From: Streptomyces sp. L-9-10
GTDB lineage: Bacteria; Actinomycetota; Actinomycetes; Streptomycetales; Streptomycetaceae
Assembly: GCF_004151105.1 (NCBI RefSeq)
Contig: NZ_PHRF01000005.1
Location: 362,827-426,826 of the forward strand
Length of the DNA stretch: 64,000 bases
Reading direction: 5' to 3'
Shown one piece after another: positions 21,064-32,225 of this stretch (positions are counted from its first letter, which is position 1; every line of letters begins with the position of its first letter). The notes below the pieces were generated by a model. That model was not told where the DNA came from. It saw only the letters and a list, made by a program, of their open reading frames with translations, and searched no databases. Both the position numbers and the translations under genes were made by a program.

Positions 21064-21428
21064 TGCACACCGGTCACGCGGGCGGCACATCATCTCCCGG
21101 TGGGCTTCGCGCTCCGGTCCGGAAGTCCGCGTGTTGGTATGGAATGTCTCGTTCCGTCGCCGAGGGGGAGCCCAGTTCGCGGGACATCACGCCCGCGAAG
21201 ACGTGGGGATGCTGCCACCACTTCATGAACACGCCTGCACACCAGACCGTTTCGGCGCCGCGATACGTCGCGATCGGGAACGATGCGATTGGCAAGGCGG
21301 CGCGACCCCGTGCTTTCATCCTTCGCACCGCGGCAACCGCACAGACGGAAGGCCCCGTTCCGGGGCCCGACGGAGCGCGTGACCGCTGTGGAAATTCCGA
21401 GATATCAGCGCGAAGGGAAGCAAACATC
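21064..21428. other. Upstream region of the double-glycine peptide gene
   Basis: No gene is convincing in the 480 bases from 20948 to 21428. Besides the palindrome at 21032-21063, a GGCCCC-GTTCC-GGGGCC hairpin lies at 21351-21367, about 60 bases before the peptide start. I looked for further small ORFs with a Gly-Gly leader on the plus strand and saw none. The region presumably contains the promoter. Confidence 0.45.
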
Positions 21429-21635
21429 ATGTCCTTCACCCCGCAGGTCGAGACCCAGGAAATCTCCGACAGCGACCTGGACAACGTGTCCGGTGGCCTC
21501 GTCGACGGTCTGGTCGGCACCGTCATCTCCACCGCTGACTCCGTCGCCCCCGTCTCGGAGATCGTCGGAACCGCCACCGGTGTTGTCGGCGGCCTCACGG
21601 CCGGCCTCCCGGTCGGCGTCGGCGTCAACCTCTGA
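21429..21635 (+). CDS. Double-glycine leader peptide precursor (bacteriocin-like), no cysteine
   Basis: 68 residues. The leader MSFTPQVETQEISDSDLDN plus VSGG ends in Gly22-Gly23 and has the acidic EISDSDLDNVSGG pattern recognised by C39 leader peptidases. The predicted core (24-68, 45 residues) is rich in Gly, Val, Thr and Ala, with TATGVVGGLTAGLPVGVGVN near the end. It contains no Cys, Lys, Arg or aromatic residue and is slightly acidic. Glycine spacing resembles membrane-packing motifs. Without Cys it cannot form lanthionine or thioether bridges. Ribosome site GAAGGGAAG precedes the ATG. Hairpins then separate it from the adaptor gene and the C39-ABC exporter. Likely a secreted, possibly membrane-active or self-assembling peptide; activity unknown. 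Confidence 0.8.
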   Translation: MSFTPQVETQEISDSDLDNVSGGLVDGLVGTVISTADSVAPVSEIVGTATGVVGGLTAGLPVGVGVNL

Positions 21636-21644
21636 GTCGGTGAA

Positions 21645-21686
21645 GTGCCGCTGAGCGGCACGGCCTCGCGTGGTGACAGCCACGCG
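21645..21686 (+). terminator. Two tandem hairpins after the peptide gene
   Basis: GTGCCGCT-G-AGCGGCAC (21645-21661) and CGCGTGG-TGACAG-CCACGCG (21667-21686), starting ten bases after the stop. Such structures often act as partial terminators that keep precursor mRNA more abundant than exporter mRNA. Confidence 0.55.
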
Positions 21687-21732
21687 CGGTGACCACGGCG
21701 CGTCGGCTTTCCCCGGCCGACGGACCGCGCCC

Positions 21733-21766
21733 TATGCCCCGGTGCCGCTCCAGGTTCCGGGGCATA
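21733..21766 (+). repeat. Ten-base-pair hairpin in the exporter leader
   Basis: TATGCCCCGG (21733-21742) pairs perfectly with CCGGGGCATA (21757-21766) around a 14-base loop. A third structure between the precursor and the adaptor gene, so another candidate attenuator. Confidence 0.5.
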
Positions 21767-21775
21767 CGGCCGCCC

Positions 21776-21808
21776 GAGACCCGACCGAGACCCGACCGAG
21801 ACCCGGCC
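21776..21808 (+). repeat. Three tandem copies of an 11-base repeat
   Basis: GAGACCCGACC twice and GAGACCCGGCC once, back to back, in the untranslated stretch before the adaptor gene. It ends 36 bases before the GGGAGG ribosome site (21845-21850). Function unknown; copy number could vary between strains. Confidence 0.6.
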
Positions 21809-21858
21809 AGGACCCAACGGCCGGGAAGGAAGAACGGCCCGGAAGGGAGGAGTGTGTC

Positions 21859-22665
21859 GTGCAGTTCCGCCAGCAGGCGCTCGCCAAGCTGCGGTCGCCG
21901 GAGGAAATAGACCTGCCGGTGCGCTTCGCCCGGCCCCAGGGCTGTCTGGTCCTCGCCGTGACGGTCGTGGTCATGGCCGCCGCCACCGTCTGGGCGGTGA
22001 CCGGCTCCCTGTCGTCCACCGTCGGCGCCGCCGGAATCCTCACCCACGGGCAGGGCAGCTACGTCCTGCAGAGCCCGGTCGCGGGCCAGGTCACCGAGGT
22101 GCTCGTCGAGGAGGGCAAGCGCGTTCCCGCCAACACACCGCTTCTGAAGGTCCGTACAGCGGGCGGGACCGCCGTCGTCCGCACGCTCGCCGCGGGCCGG
22201 GTGACGACACTCGTCGCGACGATCGGCTCCGTGGTCACCACCGGCACGGACGTCGCGGCCGTGGAGCGGATCGACGGCCCGGACGATCCGCTCATGGCGA
22301 TGTTGTACCTGCCGGCCGACAACGGTTCCGAGATCGCGGTGGGAGCCTCGGTCGATCTCACCGTCCAGTCCGTGCCGGCCAAGCGGTACGGCGTTCTGCG
22401 CGGTGAGGTGACGTCGGTGGGACGGACCGGACTGACGGCCCAGCGGATCGCCGGCGCCCTCGGCAGCAACCAGCTGGGCGAACACTTCTCGAAGGACGGA
22501 CAGCCCGTCCCCGTCCTCGTACAGCTGGACCGCTCCTCGTCCACCACGTCCGGATTCACCTGGTCGACTTCGGACGGTCCGCCGTACGCGGTCGACTCCA
22601 TGACGCTCGCCGACGGCACCATCCACCTGGCCGAGCAGCGTCCGATCGATTGGCTGCTGCCGTGA
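21859..22665 (+). CDS. HlyD-like membrane-fusion adaptor (NHLM export type)
   Basis: 268 residues from a GTG with GGGAGG eight bases upstream; the longer frame covers hairpins and repeats and was rejected. VQFRQQALAKLRSPEEIDLPVRF, then one transmembrane helix (about 29-48), then a biotinyl-lipoyl-like hairpin region: SYVLQSPVAGQVTEVLVEEGKRVPANTPLLKVRT. QQALAKLRSPEEID is the usual start of the NHLM bacteriocin-system secretion protein. It should sit in the cytoplasmic membrane and link the two ABC proteins for peptide release. Its stop overlaps the next start (GTGA), so translation is coupled. Confidence 0.87.
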   Translation: MQFRQQALAKLRSPEEIDLPVRFARPQGCLVLAVTVVVMAAATVWAVTGSLSSTVGAAGILTHGQGSYVLQSPVAGQVTEVLVEEGKRVPANTPLLKVRTAGGTAVVRTLAAGRVTTLVATIGSVVTTGTDVAAVERIDGPDDPLMAMLYLPADNGSEIAVGASVDLTVQSVPAKRYGVLRGEVTSVGRTGLTAQRIAGALGSNQLGEHFSKDGQPVPVLVQLDRSSSTTSGFTWSTSDGPPYAVDSMTLADGTIHLAEQRPIDWLLP

Positions 22666-25052
22666 CCGTACCGAACACCTCGGCGACGCCGGACGAGCGA
22701 CCCGGATCACGGGAACGGCCCGCGCCGGCCGGGCACGGCCGGCACCGCCCCGGGCCCGCCCGGCCTCCGCGGCCCGGACGGACCGCCAAGCCCGCCAAGC
22801 CCGCCGAGTCCGCCGAGTCCCCCAGGCCCTCGAAGTCCGGCAGGGCCGCCAAGCCCCCGAAGCGCTCCCGGGGCGCCAGGTCCGCCGCGACCAAGCAGCC
22901 GAAGGCCGTACGCACGCCCACCATCCTCCAGATGGAGGCCGTGGAGTGCGGCGCCGCCTCGCTCGCCATGGTGCTCGCCCACTACGGGCGCCACGTCCCG
23001 CTCGAAGAGCTGCGCATCGCGTGCGGTGTGTCCCGCGACGGCTCCCGCGCGAGCAACCTGCTGAAGGCCGCGCGGAGTTACGGTCTCCAGGCCAAGGGCA
23101 TGCAGATGGAACCGGCGGCGCTCGCCGGGGTGCGGCCACCGGCCATCCTCTTCTGGGAGTTCAACCACTACGTCGTCTACGACGGCACGGGACACAAACT
23201 GGGCCGTCGAGGGGTATACGTCAACGACCCCGGCAAGGGCCGCCGTTTCGTCTCCCCCGAGGACTTCGACACCAGTTTCACCGGGGTCGCGCTCGTCTTC
23301 GAGCCGTCGGCCGACTTCCGCGAGGGCGGCCGCAAGCAGGGCGTGCTGGGCGCGGTACCGGCGCGGCTGCGCGGCACGACCGGCACGCTCCTGGCCGCCC
23401 TGTTCGCCAGCCTGCTCCTGGTCGGAGTCGGCGCGGTGGTGCCCGCGCTGAGCCGTACGTACATCGACATGTTCCTGATCGGCAAGCAGACCTCGCTGCT
23501 CGGGCCTCTGTTCGCGGCGATGGCGGCGATGGTGATGCTCACCGCCACACTGACCGGACTGCAGCAGGCCAATCTGCTGCGCGGACGCATCATCTCGTCG
23601 ACGCTGAGCAGCGCCCGGTTCCTGCGCCACCTGCTCCGGCTGCCGGTCACCTTCTTCGCCCAGCGCGGCCCCGCCGATCTGGTCCAGCGGCTCCAGTCGA
23701 ACGACACGGTCGCCGAAACACTGGCACGGGACCTCGCGGCGGCCGGCGTGGACGGGGTGGTGGTGATCCTCTACGCCGTCCTGCTGTGGACGTACGACCC
23801 ACAGCTCACCGTCGTCGGAGTGCTGATCGCGCTGCTCAACGTGGTCGCGATGCGGATCGTCATCCGGCTGCGCGCCACCCACACCCAGAAACTGCGTGCG
23901 GACAGTGCCCGGCTGACCAACACCTCGTACACCGGCCTCCAGCTGATCGAGACCCTGAAGGCCACCGGCGGCGAGAACGGCTACTTCCGCCGCTGGGCCG
24001 GCCAGCACGCCACCACACTGGAGGTGCAGCAGCGCCTCGGCGTACCCACCGCCGCCCTCGCCGTCGTCGCACCGGCCCTCGCGACACTCAACAGCGCGCT
24101 GATCCTCTGGATCGGCGGACTGCGCGCGGTCGAGGGCCATATCTCCATCGGCCTGCTCGTCGCGTTCCAGGCCCTCGTCACGCGCTTCACCGCGCCGATC
24201 ACCCGGCTGAACGGAGTCGCCGGCCGGGTCCAGGACTTCGCCGCCGACGTGGCCAGGCTGAAGGACGTCGAGAGCTTCCCGGCCGACGAGCTGTACACGC
24301 GCCCGACGCCGGACGACCCGAACACCCGCAGACTGACGGGCCATGTGCGCCTGGAGAACATCACCTTCGGCTACAGCCCGCTGGACGCGCCGCTGCTCAA
24401 GGACTTCTCCCTCACGGTCGGCCCCGGACGGCAGGTGGCGCTCGTCGGCGGCTCCGGCAGTGGCAAATCGACGGTGTCCAGGCTGATTTCGGGACTCTAC
24501 CGGCCCTGGGAGGGGACGGTCCGTATCGATGGGCAGCGGCTGGAGGACATCTCCCGCGGCGCGCTGGCCGCCTCGGTCTCCTTCGTCGACCAGGACGTCT
24601 TCCTCTTCGAAGGGACCGTCCGCGACAACGTGGCCCTGTGGGATCCGTCCATACCGGACGACGCCGTTGTCGAGGCGCTCAAGGACGCCGCGCTGTACGA
24701 CGTGGTCGTCCGGCGCCCCGGAGGCGTCCACAGCCGGGTCGAGCAGGACGGACGCAACTTCTCCGGCGGGCAGCGGCAGCGTCTGGAGATCGCCAGGGCA
24801 CTCGTCAGGCGACCGAGCATCCTCGTTCTCGACGAGGTCACCAGCGCTCTGGACGCGCGGACCGAGCGGCTGGTCATCGACAATCTGCGACGGCGGGGCT
24901 GTGCGTGCGTGGTGATCGCCCACCGGCTGAGCACGGTGCGGGACAGCGACGAGATCGTGGTGCTCGACCACGGGGCGATCGCCGAGCGGGGGCGGCACGA
25001 AGACCTCGTCGCGGCCCGCGGTCCGTACGCCGAACTCGTCAAGGAGCACTGA
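22662..25052 (+). CDS. C39 peptidase-containing ABC exporter (NHLM family)
   Basis: 796 residues from the GTG overlapping the previous stop. An extra Pro/Ala/Lys-rich tail (1-84) precedes the C39 leader peptidase with Gln90, Cys96 (QMEAVECGAASLAMVLAHYG), His169 (FNHYVVYDG) and Asp189 (VNDPGKG). A six-helix membrane domain follows (about 235-520), then an ATPase domain with Walker A GGSGSGKST (596-604), signature SGGQRQR (from 701) and Walker B LVLDE (Asp724, Glu725). It would cut the 68-residue precursor after Gly-Gly and export the core. All catalytic residues are intact. The N-terminal tail is unusual and locally repetitive in DNA (Lys-Pro-Ala and Glu-Ser repeats). Confidence 0.92.
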   Translation: MTVPNTSATPDERPGSRERPAPAGHGRHRPGPARPPRPGRTAKPAKPAESAESPRPSKSGRAAKPPKRSRGARSAATKQPKAVRTPTILQMEAVECGAASLAMVLAHYGRHVPLEELRIACGVSRDGSRASNLLKAARSYGLQAKGMQMEPAALAGVRPPAILFWEFNHYVVYDGTGHKLGRRGVYVNDPGKGRRFVSPEDFDTSFTGVALVFEPSADFREGGRKQGVLGAVPARLRGTTGTLLAALFASLLLVGVGAVVPALSRTYIDMFLIGKQTSLLGPLFAAMAAMVMLTATLTGLQQANLLRGRIISSTLSSARFLRHLLRLPVTFFAQRGPADLVQRLQSNDTVAETLARDLAAAGVDGVVVILYAVLLWTYDPQLTVVGVLIALLNVVAMRIVIRLRATHTQKLRADSARLTNTSYTGLQLIETLKATGGENGYFRRWAGQHATTLEVQQRLGVPTAALAVVAPALATLNSALILWIGGLRAVEGHISIGLLVAFQALVTRFTAPITRLNGVAGRVQDFAADVARLKDVESFPADELYTRPTPDDPNTRRLTGHVRLENITFGYSPLDAPLLKDFSLTVGPGRQVALVGGSGSGKSTVSRLISGLYRPWEGTVRIDGQRLEDISRGALAASVSFVDQDVFLFEGTVRDNVALWDPSIPDDAVVEALKDAALYDVVVRRPGGVHSRVEQDGRNFSGGQRQRLEIARALVRRPSILVLDEVTSALDARTERLVIDNLRRRGCACVVIAHRLSTVRDSDEIVVLDHGAIAERGRHEDLVAARGPYAELVKEH

Positions 25053-25053
25053 G

Positions 25054-27999
25054 ATGGCGTCCGTTCCCCCGCCCGCGGACGGCACCGGCGCGGTGATCCA
25101 CGCCCTCGGCGCCCTCGGCGCGCCACTCGACCACACCGGTCTCGGCAGCGTGCCGCTGGAAGGGCCGCATGTGCTGTGGCTCGTCATGGACGGGACGCTG
25201 GACCTCTTCGCCGTCGACGCGGCCGAGCAGGGCCACTGGCACTATCTCGGCCGCCTCGAAGCGGGTGCGCTGCTGCTCGGCCCGGTCGACGGCGCACAGC
25301 ACACCCTGGCGGGCAAGCCCTCGCAGGAGTGCCTGCTGCGCCGGATCCCGCTGCGCGAGCTGTACCGCGCGGAGTACGAGCAGCGGTACGACCCGTACGC
25401 CCAGTACGACCCGTACGAGCGGCAGTACGACCGGTACGGGCAGCATGACCCGCAGCAGGATCAGCGACAGTCCGGGCCGTACGCGCAGCCGGGCGCGGAC
25501 GGGACCTGGCCACCGGCACCGACTCCGCTGGAGCACGCGTTCGCGCTCGGTATCGGCCGCGGTCTGGGTGTCCTGCTGGAAGCGCCGTTGGACGGCCGCC
25601 CCGGTGGCGACGACGCTCTGACCGACGATGACGACCTGCTGTGGATGCAGGTCCCGCCGGGCAGCGTGGCGTACGGCGCCGCGTACAGCGCCGAGGCGGC
25701 CGGTGACCTGCTGGTCGACGGCGCGCTGTGGCAGCGGATGGTCAACCAGCAGCACCGGCTGCTGTCCGCGGTCGACCGGTGGATCGAGCGGCTGGAGAAC
25801 GCCCACGCCGATCGGACCGCGGCCGGTATCAAGGCAGGTGAGGCGGTACGCGCACAGGCGGACCAGGCGTTGATCGCCTCCATCGACGGGCCCGCCAGAA
25901 CCGGTCGGAGCGCGACGGGAAAGCCCGGGACGGGCGGTGACGAAGCCGCCTTCGCCATCTGCCAGGTGGTCGCCGAAGCCGGTGGCATCACCCTCTCGGG
26001 ACCGCCGAGGAGCGGTCCGGTCAACGATCGCGTCGGTCCCGTCGAACGTATCGCCGTCGCCGCCCGGATCCGTACCCGTGCGGTCCGGCTCGACGGGAAC
26101 TGGTGGCGTACGGACGCCGGCCCGCTGGTGGGCCACTGGGCCAAGTCCGGCGCGCCGGTCGCGCTGCTGTGGCGGCGCGGCCGGTACGAGGCGGTCAACC
26201 CGGCCTCGGGGCTGCGGATGCGGCTCGGCCCGCACAACGCCGGGGAACTGGAGCCGCGTGCCGTCATGTTCTACCGGCCGCTGCCCGACCGGCCCATGAC
26301 ACCGGTGCGGCTCATGCGCTTCGGACTGCGCGGCAGCGGCGCCGACGCCCGGAATCTCGTGCTGAGCGGGCTGGTCACGGTCGGCCTCGGCGCGCTGGTA
26401 CCGATCGCGACCGGACAGGTGCTGGGGGTCTTCGTACCGAACGCCGAGACGAGCCTCATCGCGCAGGTCTCGCTGGCCGTCATGATCACCAGCGTGGTCG
26501 CCGCCGCGTTCGCGCTGCTCCAGAACCTGACCCTGCTTCGTCTGGAGGGCCGGATCGAGAGCGTGCTTCAGCCCGCCGTCTGGGACCGGCTGCTGCGGTT
26601 GCCCGCGAGGTTCTTCACCGGCCGTTCCACCGGCGAACTGGCCAGTGCGGCCATGGGGATCAGCGCCATCCGCCGGGTGCTCTCCGGCGTCGGCCCGGTG
26701 GCCGTGCAGGCGGGCACGGTCGGCGCGATGAATCTCGTACTGCTGCTGTGGTTCAGCGTGCCGCTGGCGCTGGCGGCGATCGCCATGCTGATCGTCATCG
26801 CGGCCGTGTTCCTCGGGATGGGACTGTGGCAGGTGCGCTGGCAGCGACGGCTCGTGGAGCTGAGCAACAAGCTCAACAACCAGGCGTTCCAGACCCTGCG
26901 CGGGCTGCCCAAGCTGAGGGTCGCGGCGGCGGAGAGTTTCGCGTACGCGGCGTGGGCCGACGAGTTCGCCCGCTCCCGCGAACTGCAGCAGCGTACGGGC
27001 CGGATCAGAAACCTGACCACGGTCCTCGACGCGGTCTATCTGCCGCTCTGTTCCCTCGCCATGTTCATGCTCTTGGCGGGTCCGGCGCGCGACAGCATGT
27101 CGGCGGCCGAATTCCTCACCTTCAACACCTCCATGACGATGCTGCTGACCTCCGTCACCCAGCTGACCGGGGCGTTCGTCTCGACGGCAGCCGCACTGCC
27201 GATGTTCGAACAGATCACGCCGGTACTGGACGAGCCCCCCGAGGTCCGCTCCGCCAGCACCCAGCCCGGTGTCCTGTCCGGCGCGATCGAGGCCCGGAAC
27301 CTCTCCTTCCGCTATTCCGCCGGTGGTCCGCTGATTCTGGACGACGTGTCACTGGAGATCCGGCCGGGCGAGTTCGTGGCGATCGTCGGCCCGAGCGGCT
27401 GCGGAAAGTCCACCCTGCTCCGGCTCCTCATCGGCTTCGACCAGCCGCTCTCGGGCAGTGTGCTGTACGACGGCCAGGACCTGGCCGCTCTCGACCAGGC
27501 GGCCGTGCGCCGACAGTGCGGGGTCGTCCTGCAGAACGCGCAGCCGTTCACCGGGTCGATCCTGGACTGCGTCAGCGGCGCCGAGACGTTCTCCCAGGAG
27601 GAGGTGTGGGAAGCCGCGGAGATGGCCGGTCTCGCCGACGACATCAAACGCATGCCCATGGGCCTGCACACCCTGATCTCCGGCGGCGGCGCGATCTCCG
27701 GCGGGCAGCGCCAGCGCCTGATGATCGCCCAGGCCCTGATCCGCCGTCCCCGCATCCTGTTCTTCGACGAGGCCACCAGCGCCCTGGACAACGCGACGCA
27801 GCGCGTCGTGACCGAGAGCACGCGCAGACTCCGTGCCAGCCGCCTCGTGATCGCCCATCGGCTGTCCACCGTCATGGACGCCGACCGCGTCTTCGTCATG
27901 GCGGACGGCCGCGTCGTGGAACAGGGGCCGCCGGCCGACCTGCTCGCCGACACGAACGGCCGGCTTCACGAGCTGGTACGGCGCCAGCTCACCCATTGA
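25054..27999 (+). CDS. Second NHLM-type ABC protein (permease and ATPase fusion)
   Basis: 981 residues, one base after the exporter stop. The long N-terminal part (about 1-400) lacks a C39 peptidase and has a cyclic-nucleotide-domain-like beginning (LWLVMDGTLDLFAV). After a membrane domain (about 430-710) comes an ATPase with Walker A GPSGCGKST (779-787), signature SGGQRQR (from 882) and Walker B FFDE (Asp905, Glu906). This is the layout of the NHLM bacteriocin-system ABC protein that pairs with the peptidase transporter. A Tyr/Asp/Pro/Gln-rich insert at about 107-150 (repeats of YDPY) is odd and looks recently expanded. Probably forms a heterodimeric exporter or accessory pump. Confidence 0.9.
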   Translation: MASVPPPADGTGAVIHALGALGAPLDHTGLGSVPLEGPHVLWLVMDGTLDLFAVDAAEQGHWHYLGRLEAGALLLGPVDGAQHTLAGKPSQECLLRRIPLRELYRAEYEQRYDPYAQYDPYERQYDRYGQHDPQQDQRQSGPYAQPGADGTWPPAPTPLEHAFALGIGRGLGVLLEAPLDGRPGGDDALTDDDDLLWMQVPPGSVAYGAAYSAEAAGDLLVDGALWQRMVNQQHRLLSAVDRWIERLENAHADRTAAGIKAGEAVRAQADQALIASIDGPARTGRSATGKPGTGGDEAAFAICQVVAEAGGITLSGPPRSGPVNDRVGPVERIAVAARIRTRAVRLDGNWWRTDAGPLVGHWAKSGAPVALLWRRGRYEAVNPASGLRMRLGPHNAGELEPRAVMFYRPLPDRPMTPVRLMRFGLRGSGADARNLVLSGLVTVGLGALVPIATGQVLGVFVPNAETSLIAQVSLAVMITSVVAAAFALLQNLTLLRLEGRIESVLQPAVWDRLLRLPARFFTGRSTGELASAAMGISAIRRVLSGVGPVAVQAGTVGAMNLVLLLWFSVPLALAAIAMLIVIAAVFLGMGLWQVRWQRRLVELSNKLNNQAFQTLRGLPKLRVAAAESFAYAAWADEFARSRELQQRTGRIRNLTTVLDAVYLPLCSLAMFMLLAGPARDSMSAAEFLTFNTSMTMLLTSVTQLTGAFVSTAAALPMFEQITPVLDEPPEVRSASTQPGVLSGAIEARNLSFRYSAGGPLILDDVSLEIRPGEFVAIVGPSGCGKSTLLRLLIGFDQPLSGSVLYDGQDLAALDQAAVRRQCGVVLQNAQPFTGSILDCVSGAETFSQEEVWEAAEMAGLADDIKRMPMGLHTLISGGGAISGGQRQRLMIAQALIRRPRILFFDEATSALDNATQRVVTESTRRLRASRLVIAHRLSTVMDADRVFVMADGRVVEQGPPADLLADTNGRLHELVRRQLTH

Positions 28000-28071: not shown

Positions 28072-29169
28072 TCAGTCCCGCGCCTCGGCGGTGTCGTTCA
28101 CCGGCCGGAGATGGCGAAGGAAACCGTCGACCCGGTCGCCGAGGCGGACGCCGTCGCGGGCTGTCCAGTGGCGGCGCAGTACGCGGACACCCACGCACGT
28201 ATTGACCGTCGTCACCTCGGGGAAGGCCCCGAGATCCGTGGTGATGAAGCGGGCCAGGTCCTCCTCGTCACGGAAGACGCCGTAATGGATCACCGACGAG
28301 GAGCCGGCCACCATCGACACATAGCGGGCGGAGGGATGGCTGCCCAGGGTGTCGAGCAGGCCCGGGATGGCCTGGGGGAGGACCGTCAACGACATCAGGG
28401 CGTTGAGCGGGAAGCCCAGCAGGGTGGGTTCGATCTCCACCCGGGGCCAGAGGGCACCGCACTCCAGAAGTGACTGCGAGGTGCGGTACGCCGTCGAGCG
28501 GCTGACGTCCAGCGCGCGGGCGATGTCGGCGGCCGGGATCCGCCCGTTGGCCACCATCAGCTCCGCCGTGCGCCGTTCCAGCTCCGACAACTGCTCCGGC
28601 GAGGTCCGCCGTTCCTGCGTGACCTGTACGGCGTGCTCGTGGAGCCGCTCGCTCTGCTCGCCCGTGAGCCGGTGAAGCCGCCAGGTCTGGCCCATGGTGT
28701 GGGCGCGCAGGACCAGCTGGGACTCCGTGGAGACGATGCCCGGTATACCGGGCAGGCGGTTGGTCAGCAGATCGAAGATATCGGTCCCGAGCAGCGGGTA
28801 GACGCTGCAATAGATGTCGGCGTTGCCGGTCGTCAGCAGCAGCGTCTGCACCTCGGCCAGCTCCAGGATGCGCCGCGCGACCTCCTGGGAGCGTCCCGGT
28901 TCGCATGTGATCCACACCTGACGCGGGTTCTCCGTGGTGATCAGTGGCCAGTCCAGTCGGCCGACCACCCGCAGCAGCCGCTCCGTGCGCAGCCGCGACA
29001 GACGGCGGGCGACGGTGCTGGGCGAGCTGTCGAGCACCTCGGCGAGCGCGTTGACCGGGGTGCGGGGCGCTATCTGGAGCGCCGCGACCAGATCGAGGTC
29101 GACGTCATCGAGCAACCGTTCCTCCGGGCGCGCGGATGACCGTCGCATGGTGACGGTGGGCGAGGGCAT
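28072..29169 (-). CDS. Tandem Lrp/AsnC-family regulator
   Basis: 365 residues, a double Lrp: first helix-turn-helix LDLVAALQIAPRTPVNALAEVLDSSPSTVARRLSRL, a RAM-like domain (VQTLLLTTGNADIYCSVYPLL), then a second helix-turn-helix AELMVANGRIPAADIARALDVSRSTAYRTSQSLLECG and a second RAM domain (YVSMVAGSSSVIHYGVFRDEEDLARFITTDL). Streptomyces has many such fused forms. The first ATG (29169) is used here; one seven codons later is possible. It is divergent from the AbgT transporter and probably controls transporter and carboxypeptidase in response to an amino acid or a glutamate conjugate. Confidence 0.9.
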   Translation of the reverse strand: MPSPTVTMRRSSARPEERLLDDVDLDLVAALQIAPRTPVNALAEVLDSSPSTVARRLSRLRTERLLRVVGRLDWPLITTENPRQVWITCEPGRSQEVARRILELAEVQTLLLTTGNADIYCSVYPLLGTDIFDLLTNRLPGIPGIVSTESQLVLRAHTMGQTWRLHRLTGEQSERLHEHAVQVTQERRTSPEQLSELERRTAELMVANGRIPAADIARALDVSRSTAYRTSQSLLECGALWPRVEIEPTLLGFPLNALMSLTVLPQAIPGLLDTLGSHPSARYVSMVAGSSSVIHYGVFRDEEDLARFITTDLGAFPEVTTVNTCVGVRVLRRHWTARDGVRLGDRVDGFLRHLRPVNDTAEARD

Positions 29170-29252
29170 GCCTTGATCCTAATCTCTTCACTGTCAGAAA
29201 GTTACACGGTCGAAACAGCTGATAATCAAGGGTTCATTGACACATTCACCCA

Positions 29253-29268
29253 CCATGGGATCCCATGG
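29253..29268. promoter_or_regulatory. 16-base perfect palindrome in the Lrp/AbgT intergenic region
   Basis: CCATGGGATCCCATGG reads the same on both strands and follows a TTGACA box (29237-29242) by ten bases. It lies about 85 bases from the Lrp start and 32 bases before the likely AbgT start, a plausible operator. Confidence 0.4.
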
Positions 29269-29300
29269 CGAATCAATCCGCCACGCAGGAAGGGGTCGAT

Positions 29301-30890
29301 GTGGTGACCAAGACGACGGTGGAGCGCCCGGCGGGGTCCGTGGCGTTCACGCTGCGGACGCTCGGCGTCATAGAGCGCGTCGGCAACAGGCTGCCGCATC
29401 CGTTCTGGCTGTTCGTGATACTCAGCGCGGCCCTGGTCGTCCTGAGCTGGGGGCTGAACGGCCTCGGAGTCTCCGCCGAATCGCCCACGGACGGGGCGAC
29501 GGTCGTGGTGCGCAGCCTGGTCTCGGACGCCGGCGTGACCATGATGCTCGACGGCCTGATCGACAACTACGCGACGTTCCCGCCGCTCGGGGTCGTCCTC
29601 GTCGTCATGCTCGGCGTATCGGTCGCCGACCGGGCCGGGCTCCTCACCGCAATGCTGCGGGCCGCGCTGGCGAAGGTCCCGCTGAGGGCGGTCACCTTCA
29701 TGATCGCGTTCACGGGGATGGTCGCCCATATCGCCTCCGACGCGGCGTTCGTCGTCATGATCCCGCTGGGTGCGATCGCCTACCGTTCCGTCGGACGCAA
29801 TCCCGTACTGGGCGCGGTGGTCGCCTTCGTCGCGGTCTCCGGCGGACACGCCGCCAGCCCGCTGGTCACACCGTCGGACGCCACACTGGCCGCGCTGACG
29901 ACGGCGGCGGCGCACACCATAGATCCCTCGTACACGGTCACACCGGTGGCCAACTACTTCTTCTCGCTCGCCTCATCCGTCATCCTGGCGTTGGTCATCA
30001 CCCTGGTCGCCGAAACGCTGCTGACCCGCCGGCTGGCGATGATGGCGGCCGACGACACCGCGGAGCCGGAGGCCGCGACCGGGGGCGAGGACGGGACACC
30101 GGCGGAGACCGAGGAACTCCCGGACCTGTCGCTGACGGACGACGAACGCCGGGGGCTGCGCGCCGCCGCGTTCACCGCCCTCGCGCTGGTGGTCGCCATC
30201 GCCGCGGCCGCGCTGCCGGCCGGCTCACCCCTGCGCGGAGAGCACGGCGCCGTCATCGACTCGCCGCTCGTCCACAACATCGCCGTCTTCCTCTCCCTGC
30301 TCTTCTTCGCCACCGGAGTGGCATACGGCCGGGCGGTGGGGGTGGTCCGCGACGCCAAGGACATCCCCGACATGATGGCTCGGGGGCTGCGCGAACTCAC
30401 CCCCATCCTGGTGCTGTTCTTCGCGATCTCGCAGTTCCTCGCCTACTTCAAGTGGACCGCCATCGGTGAGGTCATGGCCATCACCGGGGCGGGGCTGCTG
30501 GATTCCTCCGGGGTGCCGCTCACGGTCATCTTCGTCGGGGTCATCCTCGTCGTCAGTGTGATGAACCTGCTCCTCACCAGCGGCTCCGCCATGTGGGCGC
30601 TGATCGGCCCGGTGTTCGTGCCGATGCTGATGCTGCTGAAGGTCGCCCCGGAGACCACCTGGGCGCTGTTCCGGATCGCCGACTCCTGCACCAACGCCAT
30701 CACCCCCATGAGCCCGTACTTCGTGCTCTGCCTCGGTTTCGTCCGCCGGTACCGTCCCGGCGCGGGCATCGGCACCCTGATGTCGCTGACGCTTCCGGTG
30801 GCGCTGGCGATGCTTGTCGTATGGACGCTGCTCTTCATCGCCTGGTACTCCGTGGGCCTTCCGTTCGGCCTTGGAGCCCCGACGAACTGA
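29301..30890 (+). CDS. AbgT-family transporter
   Basis: Membrane transporter related to the p-aminobenzoyl-glutamate importer AbgT, 529 residues from the GTG at 29301, with GGAAGGGG upstream; an ATG at 29265 lacks a ribosome site and lies in the palindrome. GVIERVGNRLPHPFWLF, GVSAESPTDGATVVVRSLVS, VAHIASDAAFVVMIPLGA, LTSGSAMWALIGPVFVPM and LFRIADSCTNAITPMSPYFVLCLGF align with AbgT throughout, with about 12 hydrophobic helices. A charged cytoplasmic loop (DDTAEPEAATGGEDG) is an elaboration. Paired with the M20 carboxypeptidase it suggests uptake and cleavage of an acyl-glutamate; some AbgT homologues instead export sulfonamides. Confidence 0.9.
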   Translation: MVTKTTVERPAGSVAFTLRTLGVIERVGNRLPHPFWLFVILSAALVVLSWGLNGLGVSAESPTDGATVVVRSLVSDAGVTMMLDGLIDNYATFPPLGVVLVVMLGVSVADRAGLLTAMLRAALAKVPLRAVTFMIAFTGMVAHIASDAAFVVMIPLGAIAYRSVGRNPVLGAVVAFVAVSGGHAASPLVTPSDATLAALTTAAAHTIDPSYTVTPVANYFFSLASSVILALVITLVAETLLTRRLAMMAADDTAEPEAATGGEDGTPAETEELPDLSLTDDERRGLRAAAFTALALVVAIAAAALPAGSPLRGEHGAVIDSPLVHNIAVFLSLLFFATGVAYGRAVGVVRDAKDIPDMMARGLRELTPILVLFFAISQFLAYFKWTAIGEVMAITGAGLLDSSGVPLTVIFVGVILVVSVMNLLLTSGSAMWALIGPVFVPMLMLLKVAPETTWALFRIADSCTNAITPMSPYFVLCLGFVRRYRPGAGIGTLMSLTLPVALAMLVVWTLLFIAWYSVGLPFGLGAPTN

Positions 30891-30918
30891 CGCGTCGTAC
30901 TGCTCCCACATCTTTCAG

Positions 30919-30966
30919 AGACCCAGACCCAGACCCAGACCCAGACCCAGACCCAGACCCAGACCC
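30919..30966. repeat. Eight perfect AGACCC hexamers
   Basis: A microsatellite of eight uninterrupted AGACCC units between the AbgT stop and the peptidase ribosome site (GGAG at 30994-30997). Six-base units change spacing or mRNA structure but not a reading frame. Such pure arrays are uncommon in this GC-rich background and are prone to slippage. Confidence 0.85.
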
Positions 30967-31001
30967 AGAGACCCCAGAGAAACAGGAGAAACACGGAGAA
31001 C

Positions 31002-32225
31002 ATGTCGGCACCCGCATCCGCACCCGCGCCCCTGCCCGTTCCTGACGGCGACGTGCTGTCCCGTATCGCGTCCTGGTGCCGCGAACAGGACCACCGGAAC
31101 AGCTACCTCGCCGATCTGCGCCGACTGGTCGAACAGGAGTCGCCGAGCGACGACAAGCCACTCCTCGACGCCATCGCCGATCTGCTTCAGGAACTGCTGT
31201 CCGAGCGGCTGGGCGAGCCGAGCCGTACCGTACGCCACCGCGAACCTGAGCTCGGCGACGTCATCGAGGCCGAGTACGACGGCACCGCCGACGGCGCCAC
31301 GGTGACCGTCGTCGGCCACTACGACACGGTGTGGCCGGCCGGGACCATCGCTGAATGGCCGTTCACCCTCACCGACGGGACGGTCTCGGGCCCGGGAGCC
31401 TTCGACATGAAGGCCGGTCTGGCGCAGGGGATGTGGGCTCTGCGCGCCCTGCGTGAACTCGGTCTGCCGCGGCCCACCGTGCGTTTCGTGTTCAACGGCG
31501 ACGAGGAAACCGGCAGCGTCGTGTCCCGGCCGCTCATCGAACGGGCCACCGACGGCGCAGCGGCCACGCTGGTGCTGGAGCCGGGCGGCGAGTGGGGGAT
31601 CAAGGCGGGCCGCAAGGGCGTCGGCATCTTCACCCTGACCGCGACGGGCCTCGAAGCCCATGCCGGCCTCGACCCGGCGAAGGGTGCCAGCGCCATCCAC
31701 GCACTGGCCGACGTCATCCGGGACCTGGTCGCCGCCGCCGCTCCGGCACGGGGGACGACCGTCAACATCGGCCGTATCAGCGGCGGTACGGCCCGCAACG
31801 TCATCGCCGGCGAGGCGACGTGCCTCGTGGACGTCCGCGTCAGCACGCAGGAGGAGATCGAGCGGGTGGACCGGGTGCTGGCCGGTCTGGTCGCCGCCGA
31901 CCCCCGGGTCACCATCACCGTGGCCGGCGACTGGAACCGTCCGCCGATGCAGCCCGGCCCCGGCGGCCGCCGTCTCTTCGCGCTGGCCGACGGTGTCGCG
32001 ACGCACATCCGGGCGCCCCTGGCCGAACTGTTCGTCGGCGGCGGCAGCGACGCCAACTTCGTCGCCGCCCTCGGCCGCCCGGTCCTGTGCGGCATGGGCG
32101 CCACCGGCGACGGGGCGCATGCCCGGCACGAACACGTCCTCGTCGCCGACCTCCCCGACCGCGTCGCCCTCACCGCCGGGACGCTGCTGGGCCTGGCGGG
32201 AGAACAGGGGGCGGCTCGCGGGTAG
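31002..32225 (+). CDS. M20-family metallopeptidase (glutamate carboxypeptidase-like)
   Basis: 407 residues, ATG after GGAG. Zinc ligands and catalytic residues of the M20A (carboxypeptidase G2) group are present: VVGHYDTVWPAG, GPGAFDMKAGLAQG, FNGDEETGS, LVLEPGGEWGIKAGRKGVG, and the dimerisation domain with EAHAGLDPAKGASAIHALADV. The C-terminal part has FVGGGSDANFVAALG and the last His in GDGAHARHEHV. Carboxypeptidase G2 removes glutamate from folate-like compounds, which suits the AbgT transporter 111 bases upstream. No signal peptide is seen, so it works in the cytoplasm on imported substrate. Confidence 0.9.
   Translation: MSAPASAPAPLPVPDGDVLSRIASWCREQDHRNSYLADLRRLVEQESPSDDKPLLDAIADLLQELLSERLGEPSRTVRHREPELGDVIEAEYDGTADGATVTVVGHYDTVWPAGTIAEWPFTLTDGTVSGPGAFDMKAGLAQGMWALRALRELGLPRPTVRFVFNGDEETGSVVSRPLIERATDGAAATLVLEPGGEWGIKAGRKGVGIFTLTATGLEAHAGLDPAKGASAIHALADVIRDLVAAAAPARGTTVNIGRISGGTARNVIAGEATCLVDVRVSTQEEIERVDRVLAGLVAADPRVTITVAGDWNRPPMQPGPGGRRLFALADGVATHIRAPLAELFVGGGSDANFVAALGRPVLCGMGATGDGAHARHEHVLVADLPDRVALTAGTLLGLAGEQGAARG

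Follow-up and report, generated by a model that had tools for sequence, protein, structure and literature searches.

The locus considered here raises the question of what a peptide exporter of the NHLM type transports, and for what use, when the core of its precursor is free of cysteine and no modifying gene lies beside it. It consists of four adjacent genes (21429..27999) in a 64,000-nucleotide stretch of Streptomyces sp. L-9-10 contig NZ_PHRF01000005.1, hereafter the window, for which an original prediction had proposed the export of an unmodified peptide of unknown purpose. The machinery is real, conserved and ordinary. Its kind is already known and the locus is published for S. coelicolor, where SCO0753-0756 was described in 2019 by authors who noted the missing cysteines and the conservation of the four-gene order in many Streptomyces (PMC6629963). 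The explanation that we prefer, and to which we give about an even chance of being right, is that of a widespread Streptomyces NHLM-type operon whose Cys-free precursor is cut after Gly23 and exported unmodified, its zipper-patterned core self-associating at the surface of the hyphae, where it would serve in envelope stress or morphology. The cleavage site after Gly23, the absence of modification, the self-association and the surface location are predictions from sequence.

A conserved four-gene export line

The precursor gene (21429..21635, plus strand, stop included) begins at the ATG at 21429 and encodes 68 residues with a double glycine at residues 22-23. The predicted leader (residues 1-23, 21429-21497) is followed by a core of 45 residues (24-68, 21498-21632) without any Cys, for which a monoisotopic mass of about 4,130.3 Da is calculated if it is unmodified. 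Three export genes follow on the same strand, encoding a short HlyD-like adaptor of 268 residues (21859..22665, GTG start), a C39 peptidase-ABC exporter of 796 residues (22662..25052, GTG start) and a second NHLM ABC protein of 981 residues that has no peptidase (25054..27999). As the C39-ABC start overlaps hlyD by 4 nucleotides (nt), and a gap of 1 nt separates the C39-ABC stop from the start of the second ABC gene, the export genes look like one operon. All three export proteins score above the curated cut-offs of the NHLM export families: 170.2 bits for TIGR03794 (cut-off 156.2), 1008.8 bits for TIGR03796 (853.3) and 873.4 bits for TIGR03797 (709.4), respectively. The Peptidase_C39 domain of the exporter is matched at E 1.7e-33, and its residues Gln90, Cys96 (codon 22947-22949), His169 and Asp189, which we take to be the catalytic ones of the C39 family, are identical in all 81 sequences compared (80 relatives and the window). 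Residues 88-794 of the same protein match the solved structure 4ry2, an 'ABC-type bacteriocin transporter', while the second ABC protein carries about 300 additional N-terminal residues, the TIGR03797 model covering residues 298-979. The host genome (8.85 Mb in 171 contigs, 99.97% complete) holds one TIGR03796 protein above the cut-off.

A scan of species genomes yielded at least 549 relatives of the C39-ABC protein, of which the best 80, all with Streptomyces names, were kept. One of these (L025) was left out of the test of gene order, its contig beginning inside the C39-ABC gene; the 80 loci of the precursor counts are the 79 testable relatives plus the window. The order precursor-HlyD-ABC1-ABC2 on one strand was found in 79/79 testable relatives, with an HlyD product at least 60% identical in every case and exactly one double-glycine precursor 74-363 nt before hlyD in each of them and in the window. 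The second ABC protein is present in all 80 relatives, the best piece being partial in L004 (68% coverage, beginning 892 nt past ABC1) and in L015 and L048 (cut by the contig end). Recurrence on this scale shows that the association of the four genes is not a matter of chance. Thus the secretion line of the original prediction, with its 68-residue Gly-Gly precursor, Cys-free core and complete set of C39 Gln, Cys, His and Asp, is borne out: all genes are intact in the window, the exporter trio passes the NHLM cut-offs and the same order recurs in related genomes.

Precursor and exporter also go together across the genus. Among 199 genomes both were found in 141 and neither in 51, with the precursor alone in three and the exporter alone in four (totals of 144 and 145 genomes, respectively), so that roughly 70% of the Streptomyces genomes sampled carry the peptide family. 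The precursor profile used for this count was built from 18 rows, one of which was wrong, and its match in the present genome starts exactly at the true precursor. The precursor-only genomes are G001 (79% complete), G119 (90%) and G180 (99%). The exporters of the exporter-only genomes (G028, G038, G120 and G188) score 861-944 bits, and in all other positive genomes the best exporter scores higher.

Glycine pattern of the core

The window precursor has 41 database homologues. Alignment of 50 of the 80 precursors gives 35-69% identity between the window sequence and the other 49, with T9, E11, D14, L17, D18, V20, G22, G23 and V42 invariant; the leader ends in EISDxxLDNVSGG or a near variant. Lengths range over 67-79 residues, and cores over 44-58. 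Across the 3,937 core residues of the 80 loci Cys, Lys, Phe and Trp do not occur, Tyr occurs once, Arg four times and Asp+Glu 175 times, so that the net charge of the core is -1 to -4 in 79 loci and 0 in the remaining one.

The distribution of glycine in these cores is strongly periodic. In 29 non-redundant cores, 112 Gly pairs lie four residues apart, compared with 49.3 expected (0/1,000 shuffles); spacings of 3, 7, 8 and 11 are likewise raised, and spacings of 1, 2, 5, 6, 9 and 10 are depleted. These peaks and troughs describe a helix-like pattern. Hydrophobic residues in the same cores have spacing peaks at 3, 4 and 7. Strict GxxxGxxxG zippers are present in 24/29 non-redundant cores, compared with 6.4 expected, and in 55 of all 80. 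The plain GxxxG motif is found in 80/80 cores, but its presence in 29/29 non-redundant ones is a small excess, since composition alone gives 23.7. In the window core, Gly occupies core positions 24, 28, 32, 36 and 40, a run matched by 290 of 100,000 shuffles, and Pro38 falls within the last zipper unit. Core C-termini are mostly VAGL or similar, that of the window being the hydrophobic VGVNL. An AlphaFold2 model of the precursor places helices at residues 20-39 and 46-57, with a mean predicted local distance difference test score (pLDDT) of 59.5.

The question of a modifying enzyme

Genes that might modify the peptide were looked for beside the operon. The flank test covered 6,443 open reading frames (ORFs) of at least 40 residues within 6 kb of the 80 operons, taken with no coding filter, more than 3 kb of flank being available in 74 loci upstream and 76 downstream. 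No ORF family was found in more than 39/80 loci upstream or 34/80 downstream, and the flank ORFs of the window itself are common to at most one other locus. In an earlier comparison based on a gene finder, which performed weakly (hlyD was called in only 42/81 loci), the commonest families, presumably a secreted trypsin-like protease on the opposite strand and a SpoIIE-type phosphatase, occurred in 36/81 loci each and were absent from the window. As parts of the system both were rejected; they look like local synteny.

Nevertheless, NHLM exporters were defined from precursors that undergo modification, in NHLP/Nif11 systems with the same families TIGR03794, TIGR03796 and TIGR03797 (Haft et al. 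2010, PMC2887384). A ribosomally synthesized and post-translationally modified peptide (RiPP), its maturase encoded elsewhere in the genome, would agree with that precedent, as it would with a Ser+Thr content of about 20% in the cores of the 80 loci and with five YcaO matches elsewhere in the window genome. Unlike the NHLP/Nif11 systems, however, the window precursor carries no such leader (no nitrile-hydratase or Nif11 leader model of NCBIfam matched up to E 1), and no TOMM or LanM enzyme is adjacent. A search with PF05147 (LanC-like, E 0.001) gave no match in the window genome. Among the 144 precursor-bearing genomes, a LanC-like match is missing in 25, YcaO in 55 and both in 10, and both classes are rarer, not commoner, in the presence of the precursor (LanC-like in 119/144 genomes with it and 51/55 without; YcaO in 89/144 and 47/55). 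An always co-occurring maturase encoded elsewhere, by which the original prediction could be refuted, was thus looked for in these two classes, and neither of them co-occurs throughout. We consider a RiPP distinctly improbable, and the original claims that the flanks are unrelated and that no modifying gene stands beside the operon hold, no flank gene recurring in more than 39/80 loci.

These results also bear on the annotation of the family, which is labelled as lantibiotic in databases. With SapB and class II lantibiotics the precursor shares a double-glycine-type leader and a weak similarity to PF04604 (residues 9-32, E 0.012, 15.9 bits, below the cut-off of 21.7), from which the public name 'type A2 lantipeptide' probably derives. 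Unlike them it has no Cys for thioethers and sits in a genome without a LanC-like match. A lantibiotic identity was rejected on these grounds, the cores of all 80 loci being free of Cys, and the label does not fit in this organism.

As a separate observation, the contig of the window has two YcaO genes separated by about 10 kb (G000:C5:221501-233200), at a distance of about 150 kb from the operon.

Upstream element and stem-loops

A promoter-like element, GATTGG-N16-CGTGCTTT, is located at 21287..21316 (plus strand), 112 nt before the precursor ATG, and is the sole match in the 8.85 Mb genome to the search pattern GATTGG-N(14-18)-CGTGCTTT. A site with at most two mismatches to CGTGCTTTGATCC, often with GATTGG before it, was found upstream of the precursor in 66/80 loci, compared with 0.25/80 expected in shuffles. 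The search pattern returned 87 sites in 81 of the 199 genomes, and seven with the reversed control. Of these sites, 81 are placed 72-146 nt before a same-strand precursor match (spacer of 16 nt in 79 and of 15 nt in two). Of the remaining six, four are found 129-135 nt ahead of the second-type precursors described below, with a 15-nt spacer, as judged from positions compared by hand, and two are without an assigned precursor. The exact 16-nt form precedes the precursor in 79/144 precursor-bearing genomes, and many other loci have a mismatched form. The element is a putative promoter. The spacing of GTGAA repeats upstream of the precursor was also analysed, and none was dominant.

Directly after the precursor stop are two GC-rich stem-loops (21645-21661 and 21668-21685, plus strand). 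Folding of the 70 nt that follow the stop gives z < -1.5 in 70/80 loci (mean -4.61), compared with 8/80 control stretches inside hlyD, the z scores being derived from mononucleotide shuffles; the window's own value is only -1.25. Such a structure fits a larger amount of precursor than of exporter transcript, as seen in S. coelicolor, where log2 changes of 6.3 for the precursor and about 4.3 for the exporter transcript are given (PMC6629963).

Comparison with S. coelicolor

The description of SCO0753-0756 agrees with the window locus in its small hydrophobic Cys-free precursor, HlyD homologue and two ABC components in the same order (PMC6629963). SCO0753 is reported there as 77 residues long, compared with 67-79 in the relatives studied here, and the comparison covers anatomy as published. 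An entry named S. violaceoruber (P0013, 71 residues) belongs to the precursor family. The two loci are putative orthologues.

Expression data are published for the S. coelicolor locus. In a dispersed strain whose SCO5282/SCO5283 two-component system is activated, no gene is more strongly overexpressed than SCO0753 (more than 60-fold), and in the corresponding null mutant SCO0753 and its export genes are almost silent; the authors suggest that SCO0753 is exported and acts on the surface of the hyphae (PMC6629963). In an aor1 mutant, SCO0753 rises together with the genes for SapB (PMC5733086), and sco0756 is raised in a ppm1 mutant (PMC5882110). Of the original prediction, the NHLM-type line and the Cys-free peptide stand, whereas 'unknown purpose' overlooked expression data that already existed for SCO0753-0756 (PMC6629963).

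Unlinked second precursors

Some genomes contain additional precursors far from any exporter, in which the leader is kept and the core is different (consensus LNPHASLVAGPTAVSDADVLAQVDAVKNEVLG...). Full-length precursors of this second type (at least 69.7 bits) were found in 20/199 genomes, all 20 of them exporter-positive (hypergeometric p 0.0012). Each of the 20 has a single TIGR03796 exporter, which, wherever the positions of both genes are given, is on another contig or at a distance on the same contig, and in 6/20 genomes the exact element with a 15-nt spacer is present. Individual cases of unlinked precursors of this kind that share the leader, and whose element boxes are 15 rather than 16 nt apart, are L098 5146, L099 8449 and L100 7486 (minus strand). 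Three of 12 unlinked precursors examined have yet other Cys-free cores behind the shared leader (L101 6070, L102 8128 and L109 5865). No neighbour gene was common to three or more of the 12 unlinked loci, as far as the weak gene finder allows. Mining beside the exporter alone consequently misses part of the system.

In the window genome, the precursor searches returned the linked precursor and no second type. A single copy, wide conservation and a dedicated upstream element would be compatible with a peptide signal that sister hyphae perceive. Still, 44-58 mostly hydrophobic residues make a long and sticky molecule for a diffusible signal, and no sensor gene recurs beside the operon in most loci; we regard a signalling role as very unlikely.

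A reading that goes further than the preferred one is that of a third kind of Streptomyces surface layer, in addition to those of chaplins/rodlins and of SapB-like lanthipeptides. It would be made of unmodified glycine-zipper peptides forming a regulon with one shared leader and promoter element, served by one exporter and encoded by several unlinked genes, with cores co-assembling at the hyphal envelope. We put this forward tentatively, as possible but doubtful.

Surface role or killing

The main rival to a surface role, though in our judgement an unlikely one, is that the zipper peptide acts as a bacteriocin of the Cdz or class IIb type, unmodified and entering the membranes of competitors alone or together with a second peptide. 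C39/HlyD export, a double-glycine leader and GxxxG motifs are features that the system has in common with Cdz and some class IIb bacteriocins. In Cdz of Caulobacter crescentus in particular, the peptides are small, have glycine zippers and a leader that ends in G[G/A/S], leave by type I export and are judged likely to be unmodified; they are able to aggregate at the surface and kill by contact (PMC5380434). The Cdz criterion, a precursor of 60-151 residues with a leader ending in G[G/A/S], includes the present family (67-79 residues, GG). The second unlinked peptide of 20/199 genomes, always in the company of an exporter, would also suit a two-peptide bacteriocin. On the other hand, Cdz has two linked peptides and an adjacent immunity gene, whereas the window system has one linked peptide and no conserved immunity gene, flank ORFs being shared as sparsely as described above. 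The Cdz C-terminus is short and charged or polar, whereas that of the window family is hydrophobic. Unlike Cdz, the window system has two ABC proteins and is widely spread within one genus; with exporters in 145/199 genomes the distribution is not patchy. Lys is missing from each of the 80 cores, none of which has a positive net charge, and the data from S. coelicolor link expression to the envelope and to morphology (PMC6629963). We favour a surface role over killing because of the anionic cores, the broad distribution and the absence of any conserved gene for immunity.

There is precedent for such a role in EbfG1-4/PteB of Synechococcus elongatus, where double-glycine peptides that need a C39 exporter act at the surface or in the matrix and do not kill (PMC4997328, PMC9981879). 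The likeness is one of function; EbfG promotes biofilm, whereas expression of the S. coelicolor precursor goes with dispersed growth. The preferred reading, an unmodified surface peptide, follows the suggestion of the S. coelicolor authors (PMC6629963), to which the zipper is added here as a suggested means of self-association. Its steps would be as follows. A two-component system (SCO5282/SCO5283 in S. coelicolor, PMC6629963) would switch the promoter on, and the stem-loop after the precursor would likely let precursor output far exceed exporter output. The leader EISDxxLDNVSGG would direct the peptide to the single exporter, as it would a second, unlinked peptide in some relatives, and the C39 domain of this exporter is predicted to cleave the precursor after Gly23; the helical, aromatic-poor core might then pack via GxxxG contacts at the cell envelope.

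Several points weigh against this sequence of events. From a peptide that forms a coat, clumping of hyphae might be expected rather than dispersal, and GxxxG occurs in membrane-killing peptides too. The exported product is a prediction from genes, the AlphaFold2 model has too low a confidence for a fold to be based on it, and the system is not essential, as 51/199 genomes are without it. In addition, SCO0756 was little changed (0.6-fold) in the SCO2730 mutant comparison (PMC6414726), and the dispersed growth is otherwise explained by its authors, through lower matB, cslA and glxA (PMC6629963).

A search of the open-access literature for 'glycine zipper' and Streptomyces found no Streptomyces zipper peptide in titles. 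No earlier report was found in that literature of the zipper quantification, the profile of exporter and precursor across genomes, the test for maturases, the element before the precursor or the second precursors unlinked to the exporter, the aimed search having been made for the zipper only. A Cys-free, zipper-patterned peptide behind one recognisable element makes simple tests possible.

Neighbouring genes

Directly upstream of the operon are four tandem genes for luciferase-like monooxygenases (PF00296, 16062-20898). Downstream, at 28072-32225, is a divergent pair in which the gene of a long Lrp/AsnC regulator with a second helix-turn-helix half, convergent to the operon, lies beside genes for an AbgT-type transporter and an M20 peptidase. 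The latter neighbourhood is presumably one for the use of p-aminobenzoyl-glutamate or amides. Between the AbgT and M20 genes, at about 30921-30969, is a tandem repeat with the six-base unit GACCCA.

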